A DNA stretch of 64,000 bases. It comes from Aquimarina sp. BL5 (lineage in GTDB: Bacteria > Bacteroidota > Bacteroidia > Flavobacteriales > Flavobacteriaceae). The position numbers and the translations under genes were made by a program. Where the stretch lies: assembly GCF_003443675.1 (NCBI RefSeq), contig NZ_CP031963.1:2255501-2319500 (forward strand). The letters are read 5' to 3'. The notes beneath the pieces are model-generated. The model was not told where the DNA came from. It saw only the letters and a list, made by a program, of their open reading frames with translations, and made no database searches. Below, one piece after another: positions 5,431 through 15,716 of the stretch. Every line of letters starts with the position of its first letter. The first letter of the stretch is position 1.

Positions 5431-5897
5431 GGTAGAGAAAGTATGAATGCATTTATCAATTAATTAAAAAAAGATTCTTTTTATGAAGAGGTATTCTCCA
5501 CTATCAAAAAAAAGAAACCTTCGAAAAAATCTTCATAAATATCCATAAACTATATCTAGATGAATTTTTCAGGCATTTTTTTCGTTTTGAAAACAATCAT
5601 TTTTTTGGTTATCTGATTATTATTTTAACCTACGAATAAGCTTAAATCAAACTAATAAAGGAACATATTGATATATAATTATCCTCTTCCCTATTATTTA
5701 CTTGTTTTGATAAAAAAATCAAAACAATAATAAACACAAACAATCTAAAAAAATGCCCTTTGAGTATAAAAAGCACCTCAAAACAGCTGAATTTTAGTTA
5801 AAAAGTGTTAAAATAGTACCTTTTTATACATAGTACTGTAACAAAACACAACCCTCTGCGTCTAGTAAGTATATAACAATCTAAAACAATAGAAATT
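5431..5897. other. Intergenic region upstream of the peptide array
   Basis: 467 AT-rich bases with no convincing ORF. Bases 5785-5797 (AGCTGAATTTTAG) match the left arm of the terminator that closes the array at 6660-6672. No good TAnnTTTG promoter was found, though the array promoter should lie here. Confidence 0.45.
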
Positions 5898-5984
5898 ATG
5901 AGAACATTAGACAACAATCAAATCACTAAAAAATTAAACAAGACAAACGGAAATATCTGGAACGCTAAAAGACGCTTTAGATAG
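5898..5984 (+). CDS. Array peptide copy 1, 28 aa
   Basis: First of four near-identical 28-codon ORFs. It begins MRTLDNNQITKKLN and ends NAKRRFR with a TAG stop, carrying K at residue 15 and N at 19. The peptide is strongly basic, with a KRRFR tail, and has no signal or membrane segment. Differences from copy 2 are mostly synonymous (codons 3, 9, 16 and 26), which argues that the protein sequence is what is conserved. Family unknown. Confidence 0.65.
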   Translation: MRTLDNNQITKKLNKTNGNIWNAKRRFR

Positions 5985-6046
5985 TCCAACAATAAAATCA
6001 TCAATCAACTTATTCACCTCTGGTGGATCAAAAAACAATCAACATC

Positions 6047-6133
6047 ATGAGAACTTTAGACAACAATCAAATTACTAAAAAATTAAACGACACTAACGGA
6101 AGTATCTGGAACGCTAAAAGACGTTTTAGATAG
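6047..6133 (+). CDS. Array peptide copy 2, 28 aa
   Basis: Same 28-residue design as copy 1, with D at residue 15 and S at 19. The start lies 149 bases after the start of copy 1. A small hairpin (6014-6026) sits about 20 bases before the ATG, followed by an A-rich TCAAAAAACAATCA tract. Function unknown. Confidence 0.65.
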   Translation: MRTLDNNQITKKLNDTNGSIWNAKRRFR

Positions 6134-6201
6134 TAGTCCAACAAAAAAATATTCATCAATCAACCTATCCGCCTTAGGTGGATCAAAAAACAATCAATAT
6201 C

Positions 6202-6288
6202 ATGAGAACTTTAGACAACAATCAAATTACTAAAAAATTAAACAACACTAACGGAAGTATATGGAACGCTAAAAGACGTTTTAGATAG
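6202..6288 (+). CDS. Array peptide copy 3, 28 aa
   Basis: Same design, with N at residue 15 and S at 19. Its start is exactly 155 bases after that of copy 2. It is preceded by the second hairpin type (6168-6182). The spacer sequence is conserved together with the ORF, so the duplicated unit is ORF plus spacer. Confidence 0.65.
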   Translation: MRTLDNNQITKKLNNTNGSIWNAKRRFR

Positions 6289-6356
6289 TAGTCCAACAAA
6301 AAAATATTCATCAATCAACTTATTCACCTCTGGTGGATCAAAAAACAATCAATATC

Positions 6357-6443
6357 ATGAGAACTTTAGACAACAATCAAATTACTAAAAAACTAAACAA
6401 CACTAACGGAAGTATCTGGAACTCAAAAAGACGTTTTAGATAG
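6357..6443 (+). CDS. Array peptide copy 4, 28 aa
   Basis: Same design, with N at 15, S at 19 and S replacing A at 23. Its start is 155 bases after that of copy 3. Leucine codon 13 is CTA instead of TTA and isoleucine 20 is ATC instead of ATA, both silent changes. Preceded by the first hairpin type (6324-6336). Confidence 0.65.
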   Translation: MRTLDNNQITKKLNNTNGSIWNSKRRFR

Positions 6444-6502
6444 TCTAGTAAAAAAGTATTCATCAACCTCTCCGCCTTAGGTGGGTCAAAAAACTAATCA
6501 TC

Positions 6503-6652
6503 ATGAGAACATTACAAAACATAAGGAATATATCGCGAAACAGCGCTACTCCACAATATAATAGGTTCGTAAATTACATCACACAATTCTACGATTATGA
6601 AGGAAACATTATTACAGGAAATAAAAGATACACTTACCAAGTTGAACGATAA
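6503..6652 (+). CDS. Array-terminal related peptide, 49 aa
   Basis: This ORF closes the array. It starts 146 bases after copy 4 and shares the MRTL-x-N start and the upstream hairpin/A-rich spacer, but then diverges to a tyrosine- and asparagine-rich sequence ending YTYQVER. It is basic and has no signal or membrane segment. It ends just before the terminator, so all five ORFs probably share one transcript. It may be a partner, a diverged copy, or the real effector of the system; nothing in it tells which. Confidence 0.55.
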   Translation: MRTLQNIRNISRNSATPQYNRFVNYITQFYDYEGNIITGNKRYTYQVER

Positions 6653-6656
6653 AACA

Positions 6657-6696
6657 AAAAGCTGAATTTTAGAACAAACTCTAAAATTCAGCTTTT
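6657..6696. terminator. Bidirectional terminator closing the peptide array
   Basis: GCTGAATTTTAGA (6661-6673) and TCTAAAATTCAGC (6680-6692) form a perfect 13-bp stem with a 6-base loop. Flanking AAAA/TTTT extends it to 17 bp. It sits between the rightward array and the leftward pdxH-like gene and can serve both. Confidence 0.9.
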
Positions 6697-6701
6697 ATAT
6701 A

Positions 6702-7316
6702 TTAAAACATACAACTTTTACGATTTTTCATTCCCTTATACCAACGAAAATCAAATCCAAGGTTATAAGTAACAATATAGGTAACCGCCATTGCAGGATC
6801 CTGTTCTACAAACTCTATGTGAGAAGGTTTGATCATATATCCACCCCAATATGCTGGTTTAGGAATCGTTTTATTTCGAAAACGAACTTTATATTCTTTC
6901 AAACGATCTTCTAATATTTTGCGGGAAGTAATCACTTCACTTTGATTAGAAACCCAGGCACTTAATTTACTTCCTTCAGGTCGAGACTCGAAATATCCTT
7001 CTGATAAATTTTCTGGAAGCTTTTCTGCCTTACCAGAAATAAAGACTTCTCGTTTAGATTTTTTCCAGTTAAACAAGACGGAAACATTATTATCTTTAGC
7101 AATTGCCCTTCCCTTCTCACTGTTATAATTGGTAAAGAACACAAAACCTTCCCAAGTAAAACGTTTCAGTAATACGATTCTACTTTTAGGAAAGCCATCT
7201 ACACCTTTAGTTGATAATAACATAGCGTTTGCTTCATCTTCCGGATGCGCTTTATCCACTTCATGAAACCATTTCTGAAAATGTTCTATTGGATTATGAT
7301 CATCAACCGTATTCAT
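6702..7316 (-). CDS. Pyridoxamine 5'-phosphate oxidase-like protein, atypical C-terminus
   Basis: The first ~175 of 204 residues follow PdxH closely: MELFQKWF-like start, LLSTKGVDGFPKSRIVLLK, FFTNYNSEKGRAI, SRPEGSKLSAWVSNQSEVI and PAYWGGYMIKPSHIEF. PdxH oxidises PNP/PMP to PLP with FMN. Here the tail departs: the family's EFWQGR-x-RLHDR segment, which binds substrate phosphate and pyridine, is absent and replaced by EFVEQDPAMAVTY, and the family Gln of R-Q-V is Glu. No frameshift restores it in either other frame. The ATG at 7316 is preferred because it overlaps the ATPase stop as ATGA. Either a diverged paralogue with another role or an inactive copy. Confidence 0.7.
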   Translation of the reverse strand: MNTVDDHNPIEHFQKWFHEVDKAHPEDEANAMLLSTKGVDGFPKSRIVLLKRFTWEGFVFFTNYNSEKGRAIAKDNNVSVLFNWKKSKREVFISGKAEKLPENLSEGYFESRPEGSKLSAWVSNQSEVITSRKILEDRLKEYKVRFRNKTIPKPAYWGGYMIKPSHIEFVEQDPAMAVTYIVTYNLGFDFRWYKGMKNRKSCMF

Positions 7317-9715
7317 GATTCCTGAAGTTTTATTTTTCTTCCATTCCAATTGGTTAATATCGTAACATAAACAACTACAGAAATGGAACTTAATGGCATC
7401 AATATAGCGGCTATAATTGGAGATAATTGTCCTGTAACGGCATAATACAAACCTATACTATTGTATAGGAATGACAAGACAAAACTTGATTTAATAATCT
7501 TAATTGCCTTTTTAGAAATCTTAAGATACTTAGGGATTTTGTCAAATTGAGAAGCATCTAAAATTGCATCACAAGCAGGAGAAAATACATTTACATTTTC
7601 TGAAACCGCTATACCGACATTGCTTTGAGCTAAAGCACCTGCATCATTCAATCCGTCGCCAATCATAATTACTTTTTGTGTTGACTCCTGCAATGATTTG
7701 ATATAATTCAGTTTTTGATCTGGTTTTTGGTTAAATAGCAAAGAAGTGCCTTCTGGAAGTAATTGTTTCAAGTGCTTTTTTTCTCCTTCATTATCACCGG
7801 ATAATATAGATAATTTATAGGCTTTGGTTAAAGTATTAAAAACATCCTTTACGTTCTTTCTATATTGATTATGAAAAACATATCGCCCTTTGTATTCATT
7901 ATTTGCACTTATATGAACATTTGTATTTTGTATTGCTGAAAGTTCTTTATTTCCTACAAAATTTGAAGAACCTATTTTTATAGTACTTTCTGCTAATTTT
8001 GCTTTAATTCCTTTTCCGACATACTCCTCGTATTCATCAAGTGTATATATCTCTTGATCTTCTAAAATATTATATAACGCTCTGCTAAGTGGATGATTGG
8101 ATGCTCTCAATGTGCTTTTGAGCAATGATTCCTCTTCCGAAGTTAGTTCCATCCCTTCGTATTCTATATTACTAGTAGTATTGGTCGTTATGGTTCCTGT
8201 TTTATCAAAAATTATACTATCCGTTTGAGCCAACTGTTCGATAACATCTGCATTTTTAAGATAGAATTTATTTTTTCCAAAAATTCGGAGCATATTTCCC
8301 AAGGCGAAAGGTCTAGCCAATGCTAATGCACAAGGACACGCAATAATTAATACAGCAGTGAGAACATTAATAGCTTTTCCGGCATCAATAAACAACCAAA
8401 AAGTTGTAGCGATGACCGCTATACTTAAAATAATGATCGTGAAATATTTACTAATTGTATCTGTAAGATTGGTAAAAGATGCAGATTTATCCTTGTTAAA
8501 CACATCATTACTCCATAAACGGGTAAGGTAACTTTGTTCTACGGTTTTTATAGCTTCAATTTCTATAGCTCCATATAATTGCTTGCCTCCTGCAAAGAGT
8601 TTGTCACCAGATCTTTTAGGAACTGATTCGCTTTCTCCGGTTACAAAACTATAATCGATTCTTGCCTCTCCTGTAATTAATATAGCATCTACTGGTATTA
8701 ATTCTCCATTGCGTATAAGCAATCTATTCCCTTCTTCAATATCATACACCTGAATGCTCTCTTCTTTATTTTTTTTATCTTTTTTGTCAAAAACTAATCG
8801 AGTTACCGCAATCGGGAAATAGGATTTATAATCTCTTTCAAAAGATAAAAAAGAATATGTTTTCTGTTGAAAAAATTTACCCAATAATAGGAAAAACACC
8901 AATCCCGTAAGGCTATCAAAAAAACCAGTTCCCCAATCAAATATGATCTCGGTAGTACTTCTAAGAAAAAGCACTACGATTCCAAGAGCAATGGGCACAT
9001 CTATGTTCAATATTCTGGATCTTAACCCTTTAAATGCGGATATAAAATAATCTTGTGCAGCATACAATACAACTGGCAAAGAAAACACAAACATCAGCCA
9101 GCGAAACACGTACTTATATTGTTCCAACCAGTATTCTGACACTTCAAAATATTCAGGAAATGACAAGAACATTACGTTACCAAAAGCAAATCCAGCAATC
9201 CCCAATTTGTAAATCAAACTCCTGTTAATATGCTTTTCTCCTTCAGAATAATCATCTAGACTTATATAAGGTTCATAACCAATTGAATTAAGTAACATCA
9301 CTACTTTTTTCAGAGATGTTTTTTCATTATTAAAAGTAATTCGAACGGTTTTCTTCGGGAAGTCAACTTGAGAATTTGTAATTGAAGGTTCGAGCTTATG
9401 TAAATTTTCTAATATCCAGATACATGAACTACAATGTATATGAGGAATGTATAATGTAATAATCTCTGTAGTATCATCACTAAACTCGATTAGTTTTTCA
9501 GCAATAGCAGGAGTATCGAGATAATCGTATTTTCTTTCAATTTCTTTAGGAATGGCTCCAGGAGCAGATTGTAAGTCATAATAACAGGATAAATCATTAC
9601 TCGAAAAAATATCATATACAGTTTTACACCCATTACAGCAGAATGTTTTTTGATCAAAAGTAATGGCCAACGCATCACAATCATTACCACAGTGATAACA
9701 TGTGGATTCTATCAT
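7313..9715 (-). CDS. ccoI: CcoI/FixI-type copper-translocating P-type ATPase
   Basis: An 800-aa P1B ATPase. The N-terminal Cys-rich domain typical of CcoI/FixI has CYHCGNDC at residues 6-13 and C26, C27, C30 and C44. A heavy-metal-associated domain follows with CSSC at 95-98. Later come a TGES actuator motif, the membrane CPC motif (ACPCALALARP, near 459), the phosphorylation motif DKTGTIT near 505 and GDGLNDAG near 688. This type supplies copper for cbb3 oxidase assembly. No ccoNOPS genes lie in the window, so that role is inferred from type. It overlaps the pdxH-like gene by ATGA and is divergent from a usp gene across a shared Fnr-like site. Confidence 0.85.
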   Translation of the reverse strand: MIESTCYHCGNDCDALAITFDQKTFCCNGCKTVYDIFSSNDLSCYYDLQSAPGAIPKEIERKYDYLDTPAIAEKLIEFSDDTTEIITLYIPHIHCSSCIWILENLHKLEPSITNSQVDFPKKTVRITFNNEKTSLKKVVMLLNSIGYEPYISLDDYSEGEKHINRSLIYKLGIAGFAFGNVMFLSFPEYFEVSEYWLEQYKYVFRWLMFVFSLPVVLYAAQDYFISAFKGLRSRILNIDVPIALGIVVLFLRSTTEIIFDWGTGFFDSLTGLVFFLLLGKFFQQKTYSFLSFERDYKSYFPIAVTRLVFDKKDKKNKEESIQVYDIEEGNRLLIRNGELIPVDAILITGEARIDYSFVTGESESVPKRSGDKLFAGGKQLYGAIEIEAIKTVEQSYLTRLWSNDVFNKDKSASFTNLTDTISKYFTIIILSIAVIATTFWLFIDAGKAINVLTAVLIIACPCALALARPFALGNMLRIFGKNKFYLKNADVIEQLAQTDSIIFDKTGTITTNTTSNIEYEGMELTSEEESLLKSTLRASNHPLSRALYNILEDQEIYTLDEYEEYVGKGIKAKLAESTIKIGSSNFVGNKELSAIQNTNVHISANNEYKGRYVFHNQYRKNVKDVFNTLTKAYKLSILSGDNEGEKKHLKQLLPEGTSLLFNQKPDQKLNYIKSLQESTQKVIMIGDGLNDAGALAQSNVGIAVSENVNVFSPACDAILDASQFDKIPKYLKISKKAIKIIKSSFVLSFLYNSIGLYYAVTGQLSPIIAAILMPLSSISVVVYVTILTNWNGRKIKLQES

Positions 9716-9830: not shown

Positions 9831-10745
9831 ATGATGAAAAAGATTTTGTTACCTACTGATTTTTCAGATAACTCCTGGAATGCTATTGATTATGCTACGG
9901 AACTTTTTAAAGAAGAAGCCTGTACTTTTTTCCTTTTAAATGTATATAGTAAGATCATTTATGAATCTGTACATCTTTCTGATATACCCTCTGAGCGTAG
10001 TATTGAAAATACTGTAAAAGCGAATGCAGTAACAAATCTGGAGCATCTAAAAAAGACCATAATACATACAAGTCCTAATCAGAAGCATACATTCGAAATA
10101 ATTGCTGCTTTGGGCTCTCTAACAGAGGTAACAAAAGAAGTTGTGAAATCTGAAAAAATAGATCTCATAATTATCGGAACCAAAGGTGCCACAGGAACAA
10201 AAGAAGTATTCATGGGCAGCAATACGGTGCGTATTATTAATACTATAAAAAAATGTCCTGTTTTAGCAGTGCCGGATGGTTTTACTTTTACTTCCAAGCC
10301 TTCCGAAATTACTTTCGCAACAGATTTTACACATTTTTATAGTAAAGAGGAGTTAAGACCTCTATTAGATCTTGCGAAATCCTTTAACGCAACTATTAGA
10401 ATCGTTTATGTCCAGCAAGAAGAAGGATCCTTAACCGAAGAACAGAAATTTAACTTAGGAATGTTACAAAAATATTTTAAAGACATAAAGCATTATCAGC
10501 ATACCTTAATTAAAAGTGATTCGGTTTCAAAATCACTTAAAGTATTCGCTGAAGAACTTGACATTTACCTATTGGCAATGCTAAACTATTCTCATAGTTT
10601 TGTGGATAGACTTACTAGAGAACCTGTAATAAAAACCGTTTCATTCCATACCCAAATACCGCTATTGATACTACCTGAACTGGGCATGAGTGCTTCTTTC
10701 TCCAAAGAAACTCGAAAAAATTCGAAATTAGAAGAAACACCATAA
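9831..10745 (+). CDS. Universal stress protein, two Usp domains (copy 1)
   Basis: The 304-aa protein holds two fused Usp folds, about 4-145 and 155-285, with a 20-residue polar tail. Domain 1 has the start KKILLPTDFSDNSWNAIDYA and the nucleotide-binding loop GTKGATG-x8-GSNT; domain 2 lacks a clear loop, as is usual in flavobacterial tandem Usps. The role is general stress or low-oxygen survival in the cytoplasm; the mechanism is unknown for this family. First of six usp genes on this strand. Its promoter carries an Fnr-like box. An ATG three bases later is also possible. Confidence 0.9.
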   Translation: MMKKILLPTDFSDNSWNAIDYATELFKEEACTFFLLNVYSKIIYESVHLSDIPSERSIENTVKANAVTNLEHLKKTIIHTSPNQKHTFEIIAALGSLTEVTKEVVKSEKIDLIIIGTKGATGTKEVFMGSNTVRIINTIKKCPVLAVPDGFTFTSKPSEITFATDFTHFYSKEELRPLLDLAKSFNATIRIVYVQQEEGSLTEEQKFNLGMLQKYFKDIKHYQHTLIKSDSVSKSLKVFAEELDIYLLAMLNYSHSFVDRLTREPVIKTVSFHTQIPLLILPELGMSASFSKETRKNSKLEETP

Positions 10746-10773
10746 AAACGATTTACCCATTCATGATTATGAA

Positions 10774-11001
10774 TTAATCTTGATCTTTAGCTACTGGTCG
10801 ATCTTCATACAAATCGTCAAAAGTTTTATTCGTTTTATACGTATCGGTAAGGACTGCATATACCATCAGAATAACCAGCACCTGACCAAAACAAGTAAGA
10901 TAAAACACCCAACTAAATTCGATATCCATTAGTACCATTATCGTAATAAATAATAATAGTATCGTAGTAATAACAACCATTACCATCCCAGAAATTCTCA
11001 T
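10774..11001 (-). CDS. Small two-helix membrane protein, 75 aa
   Basis: Two transmembrane helices (about 5-25 and 30-52) are followed by an acidic cytoplasmic tail (TFDDLYEDRPVAKDQD). Similar short proteins, including the TDTYKTNKTFDDLYED-like tail, are familiar from flavobacterial stress clusters but have no assigned function. It lies opposite to the usp genes, so it is either read from the 11.0-11.15 kb gap or independently expressed. The conserved-looking tail and the position argue for a real gene. Confidence 0.65.
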   Translation of the reverse strand: MRISGMVMVVITTILLLFITIMVLMDIEFSWVFYLTCFGQVLVILMVYAVLTDTYKTNKTFDDLYEDRPVAKDQD

Positions 11002-11076
11002 ATTTTGTTTTTCTTAAAATTAAAAAAAATCAATAAGAAATACTCTTAACTGTTAGCTAAAACATAATTAGTTAGC

Positions 11077-11119
11077 TGACAAAAATCATAGTTTCTAAGC
11101 TTGTTGTTATCTAGTTTTG
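11077..11119 (+). promoter_or_regulatory. Fnr/Crp-like box and -7 element of usp copy 2
   Basis: TGACAAAAATCATAG (11077-11091), then TAGTTTTG (11112-11119). The centre-to--7 distance is 29.5 bases. The ATG is 26 bases further on. Confidence 0.75.
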
Positions 11120-11145
11120 GATAAAAACTTAATAATAGCTGAATA

Positions 11146-11994
11146 ATGAGAAAAATATTGATTCCCACAGATTTTTCAGAAAATGCGATGAATGCAATTC
11201 GATATGCAGTAGAGCTATTTAAATATGAAAAGAGTGAATTTTTAATCTTTCATGCCTATGCAGACGAAGTATACAATCATAACACCTTAGTCTCGCGTTT
11301 AATTTTTGAAGAATTGAAAAAAGAGATTCATCAGAACTCTGACGAAGAGCTAGCAAAAATACTATCAGTTCTGCATAAGGTTTCTCCAAATCCAAGACAC
11401 GAATACAAAACCTTGTCGATTTTTGGAACACTCGTAGATGAAGCGAATGATCTGGTGGATCAGGAAAATATTGATACCCTAATTATGGCTACCAGAGGCA
11501 AAACAGATGACCGTAAAATCACCTTTGGAAGCAACACTTTACAAGTACTTAAATACATAAAAAGCCCGGTGTTAGCAATACCTGAAGATTGTAGTTACAA
11601 TCCCCCAAAAAACATTCTTTTCCCTACTGATTATATGTTACCATACAAAAGGCGAGAATTAAAATTACTGAGTACATTGACTAAAAGCTTTAGATCTTCT
11701 ATTAACTTTTTACATATTTCTAAATATAAAAAACTGTCGCTACGGCAGGAAGACAACAAAACCTTTTTAAAAGGGTGTTTACCCGATGCAGACTTATCTT
11801 TTCATACTATAGATGAAACGGATATTACGACTGCTATTAACCTATATATCGAAAAAAATGATATTGACATGTTAGTGATGATAAACTCCAGACACTCATA
11901 TCTGGAATGTGTATTGTATCAATCCACTATCGATAAGATTGGATTACATATCAAAATACCATTTCTAACAATGCAAAACTTACAACGAAATTAA
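11146..11994 (+). CDS. Universal stress protein, two Usp domains (copy 2)
   Basis: A 282-aa tandem Usp with the start RKILIPTDFSENAMNAIRYA. The loop of domain 1 is changed: ATRGKTDDRKITFGSNT in place of GTKGATG, so nucleotide binding may differ from the siblings. The second domain begins near residue 155 (ILFPTDYMLPY). Only 12 bases separate it from the next usp, so they form one transcript. Confidence 0.88.
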   Translation: MRKILIPTDFSENAMNAIRYAVELFKYEKSEFLIFHAYADEVYNHNTLVSRLIFEELKKEIHQNSDEELAKILSVLHKVSPNPRHEYKTLSIFGTLVDEANDLVDQENIDTLIMATRGKTDDRKITFGSNTLQVLKYIKSPVLAIPEDCSYNPPKNILFPTDYMLPYKRRELKLLSTLTKSFRSSINFLHISKYKKLSLRQEDNKTFLKGCLPDADLSFHTIDETDITTAINLYIEKNDIDMLVMINSRHSYLECVLYQSTIDKIGLHIKIPFLTMQNLQRN

Positions 11995-12006
11995 AACAAT
12001 ATAATT

Positions 12007-12924
12007 ATGAAACGGATCTTATTACCCACTGATTTTTCTGACAATGCATTTAATGCTATACGGTATGCTATGCAATTTTTTAAGAATGAAGAATGTACAT
12101 TTTATCTCCTTCATACATTTACGCCAGTCTCTTATAACGTAGGATATCTTATAGAGAATCCAGTGCCTTATGGAATTGAAGATATCGTTATGATGAATTC
12201 GAAAAGAGATATTGAAAGTACTGAAGAAAAAATAAAAAATGAGTTTAATAACCCAAAGCATAGTTTTGTGAGGATTTCAGCCTTTAATATGCTAATTAAT
12301 GAAATCAAAGATACCGTAGATCGCTACAACATTGATCTGATAGTTATGGGTACCAAAGGAGCTACAGGAGCAAAAGAAATCTTTATCGGAACGCATACTA
12401 TGTATACTATTAAAAAAGCAAAATGTCCGGTTCTAGCAATTCCTTCTGACTTTGAATATGAGGAACCTAAAGAGATATTATTTCCAACAGATTATTATCT
12501 TAGTACGTCTAATAAGTATCTACCTTTAATTAAAGACATTTGTACCAGACATACATCAAGGCTTCATATGCTTAATGCCTATTATGGCATTCCTTTAGAT
12601 CAAAATCAAAAAGAAATAAAAGATTTTATGGATACTTACTTTGATAAAAATGCTCATATTTTTCACATAGCAGATGGTATGGATGTAATTGAAGCAGTAG
12701 AAGATTTTCAAAAAATGAATATCATAAACTTGCTAGTTATGGTTCATAATAAACACTCATTTTTTGAGAATTTGTTATTCAAACCGGTAATAAACGAAGT
12801 AGCATATCACACCAACATCCCATTTTTAGTAATACCATCAGAAAAACGAATAGGATCGAATCCCAAAGAAGATCGAGCCGATGAAAAAAGAAAAGAAAAA
12901 GAGGACGAAGGTTTAGCTGTTTAA
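12007..12924 (+). CDS. Universal stress protein, two Usp domains (copy 3)
   Basis: A 305-aa tandem Usp: start KRILLPTDFSDNAFNAIRYA, loop GTKGATGAKEIFIGTHT (GTHT where siblings have GSNT), second domain from about residue 155. The C-terminus is a highly charged tail of ~25 residues (EDRADEKRKEKEDE). It follows copy 2 by 12 bases with no promoter of its own in the gap. It probably belongs to the copy 2 transcript. Confidence 0.88.
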   Translation: MKRILLPTDFSDNAFNAIRYAMQFFKNEECTFYLLHTFTPVSYNVGYLIENPVPYGIEDIVMMNSKRDIESTEEKIKNEFNNPKHSFVRISAFNMLINEIKDTVDRYNIDLIVMGTKGATGAKEIFIGTHTMYTIKKAKCPVLAIPSDFEYEEPKEILFPTDYYLSTSNKYLPLIKDICTRHTSRLHMLNAYYGIPLDQNQKEIKDFMDTYFDKNAHIFHIADGMDVIEAVEDFQKMNIINLLVMVHNKHSFFENLLFKPVINEVAYHTNIPFLVIPSEKRIGSNPKEDRADEKRKEKEDEGLAV

Positions 12925-12968
12925 CGATAATTCGCATAGCTCCAACCTTTACAAATACCATTTAAAAG

Positions 12969-13820
12969 ATGAAAAAGATACTGGTAACAACAGATTTTTC
13001 TGACAGAGCCTGGAATGCATTTGTATATGCAATCGATTTATACCGTGATAGCCCCTGCGAATTTCATATACTTAATACATATGATCTTAATTCTGTGCGG
13101 TTAGCTACTACATTAAGCTCTCAAAGAGTAGGATATTTTTACGAATCTATTAAAATAGAATCCGAACAGGGATTAAAAATGACTTTGGAGGATATCAAGA
13201 ATTCTCAGCCTGCTGAACATCATACTTTCAAAACCGTTTCAAAATCTGGTATTTTGACAAAGATTTTGCAGCAAATGACTGAAAAGAATCAATTTGATCT
13301 GATTGTAATGAGTTCTAAAGGAACTACAGGATCAAAACATATTTTTCTGGGAAGTAGTGTAAAGAGAGTATTAGAAAATAATTTTTATTGTCCTATTCTT
13401 ATTATCCCAGAAGATGCTTATTTCGAAAGAATTAAAAATATTGCTTTCGCTACAGATTTCGAACGAATATACCATAAATCAGAGATTAAACCCATCATAG
13501 ATCTGGCAAAAAACAATGACGCTACAGTGAGAATGATCCATGTCTATGATGGTCCAAAATTAAGTCTCACACAAAATTATAACTCTACAACCTTAGAAAA
13601 CTTTTTTAAAAATGTAAGATTTGATTTCCATGTAATGCCAGAATTTTCAACTATAGAGAAAGGAATACAAACCTTCATAGAAGAACTGGAAATAGATCTG
13701 TTATCAATGATCAAATATGAGCATAGTTTTATTGAACGGTTAACAAGAGAAGCTATCATAGAGAAAATCACATTCAACACTAAAATTCCTTTCTTGATTA
13801 TTCCGGCAGATCACATTTAA
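12969..13820 (+). CDS. Universal stress protein, two Usp domains (copy 4)
   Basis: A 283-aa tandem Usp: start KKILVTTDFSDRAWNAFVYA, loop SSKGTTGSKHIFLGSSV in domain 1, second domain from about residue 152 (IAFATDF). The 44-base gap from copy 3 holds only a degenerate Fnr-like sequence (12925-12939, 12 of 15 matches) with poor -7 spacing, so read-through from copy 3 is more likely than a separate promoter. Confidence 0.88.
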   Translation: MKKILVTTDFSDRAWNAFVYAIDLYRDSPCEFHILNTYDLNSVRLATTLSSQRVGYFYESIKIESEQGLKMTLEDIKNSQPAEHHTFKTVSKSGILTKILQQMTEKNQFDLIVMSSKGTTGSKHIFLGSSVKRVLENNFYCPILIIPEDAYFERIKNIAFATDFERIYHKSEIKPIIDLAKNNDATVRMIHVYDGPKLSLTQNYNSTTLENFFKNVRFDFHVMPEFSTIEKGIQTFIEELEIDLLSMIKYEHSFIERLTREAIIEKITFNTKIPFLIIPADHI

Positions 13821-13877
13821 AAAAATAATTGTTATTAAATAAAAAACCTATAGTATTCTACAAGTCTCCCATTCATA

Positions 13878-13920
13878 TGAGCATTGTCATAGTATTCCTG
13901 ATTTTTTGGAAATAGTTTTA
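13878..13920 (+). promoter_or_regulatory. Fnr/Crp-like box and -7 element of usp copy 5
   Basis: TGAGCATTGTCATAG (13878-13892) and TAGTTTTA (13913-13920), with a centre-to--7 distance of 29.5 bases. Confidence 0.65.
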
Positions 13921-13947
13921 TGATATAATTTCTAAAACTTAAAAACG

Positions 13948-14796
13948 ATGAAAAGAATACTTGTTCCCACAGATTTTTCCGATAATGCATATGGTGCTCT
14001 TTTTTATGCTACCCGATTATTTCAGAATTATGAATGTCAATTTTATATTTTGAATGCTTTCGAAGTTCATACCCCTGTATTAACGGGCAGAATTGATACG
14101 AACAAAGGAGATTTGCTATATCGAAAACTTAGTGCTGAGTCTAAAGATGGATTAACACAAACATTTCACTCAATTATTAGAGATACCGATGATCTTAACC
14201 ATACCTTTGAAACTATCTCCGTTTCTAAAGACCTGACAGAGACTATAAATAAAACCATTAAAAAGAAACATATTGATTTGGTGGTTATGGGTACCAAAGG
14301 AGCTTCTGGAGCTGCCGCTCTTTTTATGGGCAGTAATACGGTGAAGGTAGTTCAAAAAATCTATAATTGCCCTGTTTTGGTAGTACCGGATGAGTATGAT
14401 TTCCAAAAACCTACGGAAATTGCTTTCCCAACAGATTTCAAACGATTTTATATAGCCGAAGAATTAAAACCATTAATCGATATTGCTTCTTTATTTGGTT
14501 CTAGTATAAGAATTTTCCATATCCATGAAGAAGAAAAATTAGATGATATACAGCAGCATAATTACAATTCGCTAAAAAATCATTTAACCAATTTTACAAA
14601 TAGTATTCATTGGATATCAAAAGAAGGACAAAAAGCAAGGTTAATTAATGATTTTATTGATGAATTAGATATTGATTTATTAGTAATGGTGAATTATCGA
14701 CATAGCTTAATGGAAAACATAACGCACGAACCTGTCATCAAAAAAATTGGATTTCATCCATCTGTTCCATTTCTGGTTATACCCGATGCTAGCTGA
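13948..14796 (+). CDS. Universal stress protein, two Usp domains (copy 5)
   Basis: A 282-aa tandem Usp: start KRILVPTDFSDNAYGALFYA, complete loop GTKGASG-x8-GSNT, second domain from about residue 152 (IAFPTDFKRFY). It has its own promoter with an Fnr-like box. It is most similar by eye to copies 1 and 4 in the second domain (ITHEPVIKKIGFH). Confidence 0.9.
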   Translation: MKRILVPTDFSDNAYGALFYATRLFQNYECQFYILNAFEVHTPVLTGRIDTNKGDLLYRKLSAESKDGLTQTFHSIIRDTDDLNHTFETISVSKDLTETINKTIKKKHIDLVVMGTKGASGAAALFMGSNTVKVVQKIYNCPVLVVPDEYDFQKPTEIAFPTDFKRFYIAEELKPLIDIASLFGSSIRIFHIHEEEKLDDIQQHNYNSLKNHLTNFTNSIHWISKEGQKARLINDFIDELDIDLLVMVNYRHSLMENITHEPVIKKIGFHPSVPFLVIPDAS

Positions 14797-14836
14797 TAAT
14801 TATCATAGTTTTCAGTTAATAAAGCTATTACATTTA
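14794..14836 (+). promoter_or_regulatory. Fnr/Crp-like box and -7 element of usp copy 6
   Basis: TGATAATTATCATAG (14794-14808) contains a perfect TGAT-N4-ATCA dyad. TACATTTA follows at 14829-14836, 29.5 bases from the dyad centre. The box begins inside the last codons of usp copy 5. Confidence 0.75.
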
Positions 14837-14864
14837 AACTATTAATCTTTAAAACCTTATTCTA

Positions 14865-15716
14865 ATGAAAAAGAAGATCTTATTACCGACTGATTTTTCC
14901 AAAAATGCTTGGAACGCTATAAGTTATGCTATTGAGCTTTATAAAAATGAGGAATGTGATTTTTACATACTTAATGTTTTTAATGCTACTGGTTATGCTT
15001 TAGAAAGTATGATGATTCCGGAACCAGGAGAAAAAAAATATGACGAAGCCAAAGAGAAGTCAGAAAAAGGGCTTAGTAAAATTTTAGAACGGCTTTCGTT
15101 TAGAGATAAATATCCAAATCATAAATTTATTATGGTCTCTCAGTTTAACAGTATACTGGAAGGAATTAAGGATATTGTTGATAAACAAGACGTAGAAATG
15201 GTTATTATGGGAACAAAAGGCACCACTAATGCTGGGGATGTCATCTATGGCAGTAATACTGTTTTGGTTATGGAAAAAGTAAGAAACTGCCCCGTAATGG
15301 CAATTCCAGAAAATGTAATCTACACAGAACCCAAAGAAATTGTGTTTCCAACCGATTACAAAACGCAGATTAAGCGCAGAGAGTTACAATATCTGATTGA
15401 AATTGCAAAAATCAGTAATGCAGTTGTATGCTTTTTATACGTTTCTAATGACGACACCTTAGATGACCAGCAGGTAAATAATCAAAAATTATTAAAAGAA
15501 TATTTTGAAACAATACCTCATACATTTCACACCTTACACAATGTCGATGTAAAAGGAGGGCTCAGTGCTTTTGTAGAAAGTAGAAATAGCGATATGATCA
15601 CTTTTATAAATAGGAAGCATAGTTTCTTTGGGAGTATATTTTCGAGACCAATGGTTAAGGACCTTGGATATCACTCTAAAGTACCGGTATTGGCGCTCCA
15701 CGATATTAAAAATTAA
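14865..15716 (+). CDS. Universal stress protein, two Usp domains (copy 6)
   Basis: A 283-aa tandem Usp: start KKKILLPTDFSKNAWNAISYA, loop GTKGTTNAGDVIYGSNT, second domain from about residue 157 (IVFPTDYKTQI). Followed 11 bases later by the eRF1-like gene, so the two are co-transcribed. Confidence 0.9.
   Translation: MKKKILLPTDFSKNAWNAISYAIELYKNEECDFYILNVFNATGYALESMMIPEPGEKKYDEAKEKSEKGLSKILERLSFRDKYPNHKFIMVSQFNSILEGIKDIVDKQDVEMVIMGTKGTTNAGDVIYGSNTVLVMEKVRNCPVMAIPENVIYTEPKEIVFPTDYKTQIKRRELQYLIEIAKISNAVVCFLYVSNDDTLDDQQVNNQKLLKEYFETIPHTFHTLHNVDVKGGLSAFVESRNSDMITFINRKHSFFGSIFSRPMVKDLGYHSKVPVLALHDIKN

Follow-up and report, generated by a model that had tools for sequence, protein, structure and literature searches.

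Operons in which several short, leaderless cationic peptides are encoded in tandem on one transcript are known from the phenol-soluble modulin alpha operon and from leaderless bacteriocins such as aureocin A70; phenol-soluble modulins and leaderless bacteriocins are amphipathic, hydrophobic and exported, and have linked exporter or immunity genes. The array that we describe here from the genome of Aquimarina sp. BL5 resembles these systems in its layout, with several short leaderless cationic open reading frames (ORFs) per unit, but its peptides are near-identical and hydrophilic and have a near-invariant WNxKRR end. RMF, a stress-induced small ribosome-binding protein, is like the 28-residue array peptide (28-mer) in being small, basic and, for the 28-mer presumably, linked to stress, but it is longer and present in single copy, and the 28-mer has no convincing sequence match in the PDB.

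On the regulatory side, the operon of the GFO_1088/PG0214-type ECF sigma factor (NF058625; NF058626/DUF4252) has the -35 element and most of the -10 element in common with the arrays, and is likely to provide their regulator rather than to be their relative. For Flavobacterium psychrophilum, PMC9723704 describes the SM6 promoters as ECF-type and low-nutrient-induced, with an ABC ATPase and a sigma/anti-sigma pair as targets; these promoters resemble that of the arrays in carrying CGT within the -10 box, but the SM6 selection tabulated there holds a putative RNA, Rfp11, and no microprotein array.

Neither operons of short peptides in tandem nor control by ECF factors is new in itself. The protein family and its iterated-gene design appear, by contrast, to be new, since it showed none of the features that define known kinds of peptide and RNA, as far as these could be tested; a search of the open-access literature by title and beginning of the abstract yielded no description of such arrays, which does not establish their absence from print. 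We propose, with a probability of about 0.48, that the arrays encode ECF-controlled, cytoplasmic basic microproteins that act on RNA or the ribosome as stress effectors, the repeated ORFs serving to raise their dosage.

Architecture of the array

The window, by which we mean the whole 64-kb stretch of DNA that was analysed, carries on its + strand at 5898-6652 a cluster of four 28-aa ORFs and one 49-aa ORF. All five begin with MRTL, the four 28-mers end in KRRFR, and the start-to-start distances are 149, 155, 155 and then 146 nt. The ORF coordinates thus bear out the initial annotation, made from the sequence alone, which had described four near-identical 28-mers with a related 49-residue ORF at a regular spacing of about 150 bases; its view that they form one apparent unit closed by a terminator agrees with the hairpin found at the end of the array. 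The features are the following:

5797-5812, + strand: two GTTAAA repeats (conserved columns in 84 distinct upstream sequences)
5817-5835, + strand: position of an operator-like palindrome, degenerate in the window (pairing compared with shuffles)
5837-5843, + strand: TGTAACA, ECF-type -35 element (conserved before arrays and the ECF sigma gene)
5859-5863, + strand: CGTCT, ECF-type -10 element, 15 nt past the -35 element (conserved before arrays)
5898-5984, + strand: 28-aa microprotein, copy 1 (ORF and homology search)
6012-6028, + strand: 7-bp hairpin in spacer 1, lineage-specific (folding, z -2.0)
6047-6133, + strand: 28-aa microprotein, copy 2 (ORF and homology search)
6167-6183, + strand: 7-bp hairpin in spacer 2 (folding, z -3.5)
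6202-6288, + strand: 28-aa microprotein, copy 3 (ORF and homology search)
6322-6338, + strand: 7-bp hairpin in spacer 3 (folding, z -2.0)
6357-6443, + strand: 28-aa microprotein, copy 4 (ORF and homology search)
6503-6652, + strand: 49-aa basic terminal microprotein (ORF; terminal small ORFs also in other arrays)
6657-6696, no strand assigned: terminator-like hairpin, with the array on one side and the convergent ORF 6702-7349 on the other (inverted repeat and folding)

The last hairpin is a perfect 17-bp inverted repeat with a folding energy of -20.9 kcal/mol (z -9.7); a scan for consensus terminators scored it on the - strand only, and it may terminate both the array and the convergent ORF. 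The inter-copy hairpins were dropped as a conserved feature, as they are lineage-specific and, by eye, missing in most of the species shown. Copies 2-4 allow an alternative 36-aa reading from an in-frame upstream GTG; the ATG is preferred because length and start context are conserved. Within the host genome, a single contig of 6.0 Mb, the 28-mer matches only the array of the window, four times (E ≤ 10).

Two side observations concern the surrounding DNA. A 17-nt stretch upstream of the promoter (5781-5797) is 94% identical to the hairpin arm at 6656-6672, which may be a trace of recombination or chance. Farther along, at 9831-15716, stands a tandem run of six ORFs of 282-305 aa; those that were clustered form one family, which we take to resemble universal stress proteins, and an adjoining 800-aa ORF is presumably copper-ATPase-like.

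Distribution and copy number

A search with a single 28-mer sequence recovered tandem copies in 23 of 33 Aquimarina genomes, that of the host included, and in none of 23 genomes from other families of the Flavobacteriales, a distribution that lifts the array beyond chance; three weak matches with E values between 0.24 and 0.99 were treated as chance. An alignment-based search at E ≤ 0.1 gave matches in 167 of 397 genomes and 123 of 237 genera of the family; by hand count, 39 of the 167 have a best E above 0.001, so that about 128 genomes, from about 87 genera, remain. A relative is encoded in 263 of the 310 stretches that bear the pattern in the named collection. The best 80 of these 263, some of them from MAGs, were carried forward and include Aquimarina, Bizionia, Hyunsoonleella, Lacinutrix, Algibacter and Formosa, as well as Hanstruepera, Ulvibacter, Altibacter, Marixanthomonas and others; together with the window and 29 loci from the alignment-based search they make up a working set of 110 loci, which contains some repeats and corresponds to 101 distinct array starts.

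The homologue search that the initial annotation had proposed therefore places arrays across many Flavobacteriaceae genera, with one to six copies found per locus: one in 19 loci, two in 53, three in 15, four in 14, five in eight and six in one, some of these counts being too low on account of contig ends, masked stretches and the E cut. Degenerate copies occur as well, one truncated to 13 aa (L067) and one match with an internal TAA (G015). Nucleotide identity between copies is 0.882 within arrays versus 0.710 across loci, which fits duplication and exchange inside the arrays.

Its proposal to look for nearby partners brought up no regular neighbour gene in 81 loci. The next ORF of at least 80 aa lies on the opposite strand in 49 of them and on the same strand in 27, five loci contain none, and a same-strand ORF follows within 150 nt of the array in five; among the neighbours are what we take to be cytochrome/nitrate-reductase-type genes, a methyltransferase/sterol-desaturase-type pair, or an ExbD-type gene. 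At three loci (L063, L077, L091) the 28-mer gene is followed after 37-128 nt by a pair of genes, the first for an ABC ATPase and the second for a product of about 1184 aa that has ABC-2 and M1-peptidase matches in the pair scanned (L063). The 28-mer genes of these three loci have no ECF-type promoter, and a functional link with the ABC pair is possible.

Selection on the peptide and start regions of the copies

Among 265 copies that start with M and have no masked bases, 250 are exactly 28 aa and 11 are 29 aa long. In 182 distinct 28-mers, W21, R25 and R26 are invariant (182/182) and N22 (181), T3 (180), K24 (179), N7 (178) and R2 (175) nearly so; the middle is freer, and the C-terminal W-N-x-K-R-R-[YF]-[RKH] is nearly invariant. 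The claim that changes between copies are mostly synonymous and the peptide consequently under selection was upheld: in the six pairwise comparisons of the four window copies, third codon positions account for 21 of the 33 sites that differ (pS 0.231, pN 0.029, in-frame pN/pS 0.126). When the proposed substitution test was extended to all arrays, in-frame pN/pS within arrays was 0.208 (245 pairs), compared with 0.81 and 1.86 in the other frames; between loci it was 0.375 (4743 pairs, with high synonymous divergence), and the two other frames gave 0.81-1.86 over all three sets, the pairs not being independent of one another. By this comparison selection on the peptide is established, and the array ORFs are very probably real, translated and selected genes.

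The regions ahead of the copies have their own pattern, established in the same comparative way. In 194 distinct upstream sequences, A is present at -3 in 93% and at -6 in 61%, and at -11, -12 and -13 in 92, 96 and 91%, versus 37-52% at positions -20 to -15. Ribosome profiling in F. johnsoniae (PMC6847099) indicates that A at -3, -6, -12 and -13 favours initiation. With an A-rich start region before it, each copy looks like a gene of its own that is independently started. A multi-copy peptide precursor, one of the roles that had been considered for the array, is hard to reconcile with copies that are separate ORFs, most of them with their own A-rich start context.

The 28-mers carry a net charge of +4 to +8 (mean +6.2) and have a mean GRAVY of -1.44; the helical moment of the window peptide is 0.45. 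These properties bear on the possibility that tandem genes provide secreted leaderless antimicrobial or surfactant peptides of the aureocin A70 or phenol-soluble modulin kind. Short cationic leaderless ORFs on one transcript, a conserved Trp and the ABC genes of the wider regulon (see below) would suit such peptides, but the 28-mers are hydrophilic, their C-terminus is near-invariant across genera, and the 81 loci have no dedicated transporter or immunity gene as a regular neighbour, so that we consider this explanation improbable.

The terminal ORF

A small ORF begins at most 160 nt past the last 28-mer in 99 of the 110 loci; it is missing in seven, and four lie too close to a contig end. Eighty-nine of the 99 terminal ORFs are 43-59 aa long with a net charge of +2 to +10, at least one of which (L096) looks spurious, and the other ten are shorter. 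The motif [KRN][RH][YFH] occurs near the C-terminus in 54 of the 99, and many share with the 28-mer an M[KR]T start and a basic, aromatic end, which suggests that the terminal ORF is homologous to the 28-mer. The 49-aa ORF has 11 relatives in the protein collection, all called 'hypothetical' or 'uncharacterized' or without a name. Two kinds of small ORF in one unit would suit a toxin-antitoxin unit, another role that had been considered, with the 28-mers and the terminal ORF as partners. We regard this as very improbable: the terminal ORFs resemble the 28-mers in being basic (89 of the 99 are so, at 43-59 aa), the 28-mers are hydrophilic, and the tested 28-mers and 49-aa ORF matched neither a PADLOC entry nor any toxin or antitoxin family.

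Searches against known families

Searches of Pfam, NCBIfam, PHROGs and PADLOC produced isolated weak matches only (E 0.06-0.22), the PHROGs and PADLOC queries being three 28-mers and the 49-aa ORF. Comparison with PDB chains, ribosomal proteins included, gave best E values of 0.45 and 0.3, to unrelated proteins, and Rfam held no family at gathering score and chance-level matches below it. The statement of the initial annotation that no family is recognisable stands, as none of these six collections contains a convincing match.

The Rfam result also concerns the idea that the locus makes a regulatory RNA or a leader-peptide attenuator, with translation incidental. A strong terminator-like hairpin and small inter-ORF hairpins are present in the window, and in F. 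psychrophilum the Rfp11 RNA stands behind a promoter of ECF type (PMC9723704). Selection on the array is nevertheless frame-specific, no Rfam family reaches gathering score, 153 intact spacers vary between 28 and 84 nt, the hairpins are missing in most species shown, and an attenuator would have a close same-strand downstream gene to act on in five of 81 loci only; we therefore give this explanation even less credence than secretion.

Promoter and palindrome

Comparison of the upstream regions establishes a conserved promoter, and the array is very probably under ECF-type control; this promoter and the wide distribution of the arrays had both been overlooked by the first reading. The relaxed pattern [TG]GTAAC[AG]-N15-[CT]GTCT is present at 94 of 110 array loci, in 72 of these 94 at 57-64 nt ahead of the first ATG. 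Of the 16 non-matching loci, nine are one change off by eye and two are truncated by contig ends; five array loci have no ECF-type promoter (L056, L063, L077, L091, L123). When one genome per genus was searched across the family (149 genomes), 66 carried the upstream element with at most two mismatches, against 0 in the control throughout. A search of the order found it in 11 of 296 genomes; the 11 belong to the 50 genomes from the own family, the 246 others gave no match, and one of the 11 (G669, two mismatches) looks like chance; in genus g147, possibly Flavobacterium, the array element is absent from all 25 genomes, barring one two-mismatch match. A search of ten array-less Aquimarina genomes for the array promoter, two mismatches being allowed, yielded 49 matches (a single mismatch in one of them, two in 48) versus 30 in the control; 20 of the 49 made loci, five of these have an exact TGTAACA-N15-CGTCT, and in none does an array follow.

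Just before the -35 element, a 19-nt palindrome is near-perfect outside the Aquimarina type, pairing at 7.14 of 9 positions in 22 distinct sequences versus 2.92 in shuffled ones; the four Aquimarina-type sequences pair at 5.0 of 9, which is within the range of their shuffles (mean 2.94, maximum 5.5). In several genera, an operon for a membrane-type protein of about 201-204 aa and a winged-helix protein has next to it a palindrome of like form, TACTTTG-N5-CAAAGTA. By Pfam, one such operon (L260) encodes an HTH_34 winged-helix protein and CreD, and a CreD-type protein is also present at L261; two sites in the own genome (L263 and L276; G000:C1:2046746, 2048305) have a similar gene order with a winged-helix-type protein, and an intragenic match (L259) is probably chance. 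By analogy, our guess is that the HTH_34 protein binds the array promoter.

The peptide behind the promoter and palindrome is not always the same. Of 30 element loci that were read, 21 have family copies of 28 or 29 aa; at five (L158, L159, L168, L175, L176), between one and three ORFs encode another basic sequence, 33-37 aa long, in which S24, K25, W29 and R33 are invariant (ten aligned); three (L166, L167, L174) have single basic ORFs of 30-47 aa; and L157 has two promoter sites, each ahead of a 188-aa protein, and no array. The genomes of the five 33-37-aa loci gave no 28-mer match at E ≤ 0.01 in the alignment-based search (G161, 0.039). Both the 28-29-aa and the 33-37-aa type have a conserved Trp and an Arg/Lys cluster. 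Since a second peptide type stands behind the same element, the promoter, more than a single peptide sequence, appears to define the class.

The candidate sigma factor

An exact TGTAACA-N15-CGTCT occurs at six sites in the own genome and at none in the control. The array lies behind one of the six, and behind another lies an operon that encodes an ECF sigma factor of NF058625 (E 6.5e-67; 224.5 bits against a cut-off of 130), an unmatched 160-aa protein and a DUF4252 protein. The promoter elements held in common with the sigma gene are a feature well established by comparison: TGTAACA-N15-CGTC precedes 45 of 46 NF058625 sigma genes, with T as the final base in 28, A in one and G in 16. In 30 sigma loci (28 from Aquimarina and two from other families), 28 have the exact CGTCT motif 36-211 nt upstream, one has CGTCA (L205) and one has none (L208); in 16 further genera, hand-picked and mostly seen before to bear the array or the element, all 16 sigma genes have TGTAACA-N15-CGTCG and none CGTCT. 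Outside Aquimarina, the last base of the -10 element is thus T at arrays and G at the 16 sigma genes, a difference that weakens the reading of one sigma factor for both.

Co-occurrence partly points the other way. Within Aquimarina, arrays are present in 23 of 28 sigma-bearing and in none of five sigma-less genomes (Fisher p 0.001; ancestry ignored), three of the five being incomplete; across the family, the upstream element is found in 64 of 132 sigma-bearing versus two of 17 sigma-less genomes (p 0.004; ancestry ignored). The two exceptions are G086 and G134, and in the sigma-less Aquimarina genome G005 the exact motif TGTAACA-N15-CGTCT precedes a different gene (L227). Because these three genomes carry such sites without NF058625, another sigma factor may read them; for F. 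psychrophilum, too, PMC9723704 cautions that such sites may be common to several ECF factors. The array itself is dispensable, since five Aquimarina genomes with the sigma factor have no 28-mer array. Taking these sequence patterns together, we consider it probable that the NF058625 sigma factor is the switch for the arrays.

The putative wider regulon

In six further genomes, 37 exact TGTAACA-N15-CGTCT sites were found versus three in the reversed-pattern control; 30 of the 37 made loci, and some exact sites are probably chance. Adding sites from the own genome (L142, L143, L146) and from the search of array-less genomes (L210, L225), the genes behind the motif include, besides arrays and the sigma gene, the following kinds among others. 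MacB-type ABC genes follow at L233 and L245 (Pfam), at L234, which is 84% identical to L245, and, judged by sequence, at L225; an ABC ATPase follows in three Aquimarina genomes (L143, L249, L210), that of L143 having a lantibiotic-protection ABC as its best NCBIfam name, under the cut-off. A conserved 84-85-aa protein stands behind the motif in three genera (L232, L235, L246; no Pfam match for that of L235), as does a small ankyrin protein in three (L241 by Pfam, with L238 and L240 related to it). CarboxypepD_reg proteins are encoded at L146 (Pfam) and, by their likeness, at L236/L242, which is one gene with two promoter sites, and L256, and an M61 peptidase at L142. From these targets we infer an envelope-stress regulon.

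Two further kinds of site were noticed. In three Aquimarina genomes (L144, L255, L214) the TGTAACA-N15-CGTCT site has similar surroundings and no close same-strand downstream ORF was seen; that of L144 stands before a terminator-like hairpin, and the three are possibly a small RNA of the same regulon. At L248, a 63-aa ORF about 355 nt past the site has a leader like a glycine-type export leader and is a possible secreted peptide.

The composition of the regulon lends some weight to an effector at the inner membrane or envelope, in which the basic peptides would bind acidic lipids or an ABC transporter and so aid the envelope stress response that this promoter seems to govern: MacB-type ABC genes and an ABC ATPase stand behind further sites of the promoter, and at L063, L077 and L091 an ABC ATPase gene follows 37-128 nt after that of the 28-mer. 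The 28-mers are, however, very hydrophilic (mean GRAVY -1.44; window-peptide helical moment 0.45), and the adjacency to ABC genes is confined to three of 81 loci, those without the ECF promoter; we judge an envelope effector rather unlikely, though less so than a secreted peptide.

A proposed mechanism and its meaning

The preferred reading, ECF-controlled cytoplasmic microproteins in raised dosage, may be put as follows. The repeated microprotein genes would be transcribed together as one unit. When the cell meets stress of the envelope or nutrient type, the array would be read from TGTAACA-N15-CGTCT with an ECF sigma factor, for which NF058625 (GFO_1088/PG0214 type) is the likeliest candidate; the palindrome immediately ahead of the promoter may be the site of a second factor, which is perhaps a winged-helix protein. 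Translation would start anew at every ORF, each A-rich start region serving its own copy, so that repetition multiplies the yield of 28-aa protein per transcript; the longer basic protein would come last. The 28-mer would remain in the cytoplasm and act through its C-terminal W-N-x-K-R-R-[YF]-[RKH], most likely on RNA or the ribosome, a role that the initial annotation had also raised, as a stress effector; this target and location we hold only tentatively. A bolder version, which we regard as doubtful, would see an unrecognised, Flavobacteriaceae-specific class of stress microproteins, made in stoichiometric amounts so as to bind RNA or ribosomes and readjust translation when the cell is under stress of the envelope or nutrient type; the number of ORF copies would then have evolved as a dial for dosage.

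If the preferred reading is right, about one third of the sampled genera of the Flavobacteriaceae, a major family of marine bacteria, (about 87 of 237, by hand count) possess a protein family that has gone largely unnamed, its products being very short. The arrays would then offer a natural series in which the number of ORF repeats per transcript may set dosage, and, with a promoter, its candidate sigma factor and a product of 28 residues to hand, the function of the family could be tested directly.
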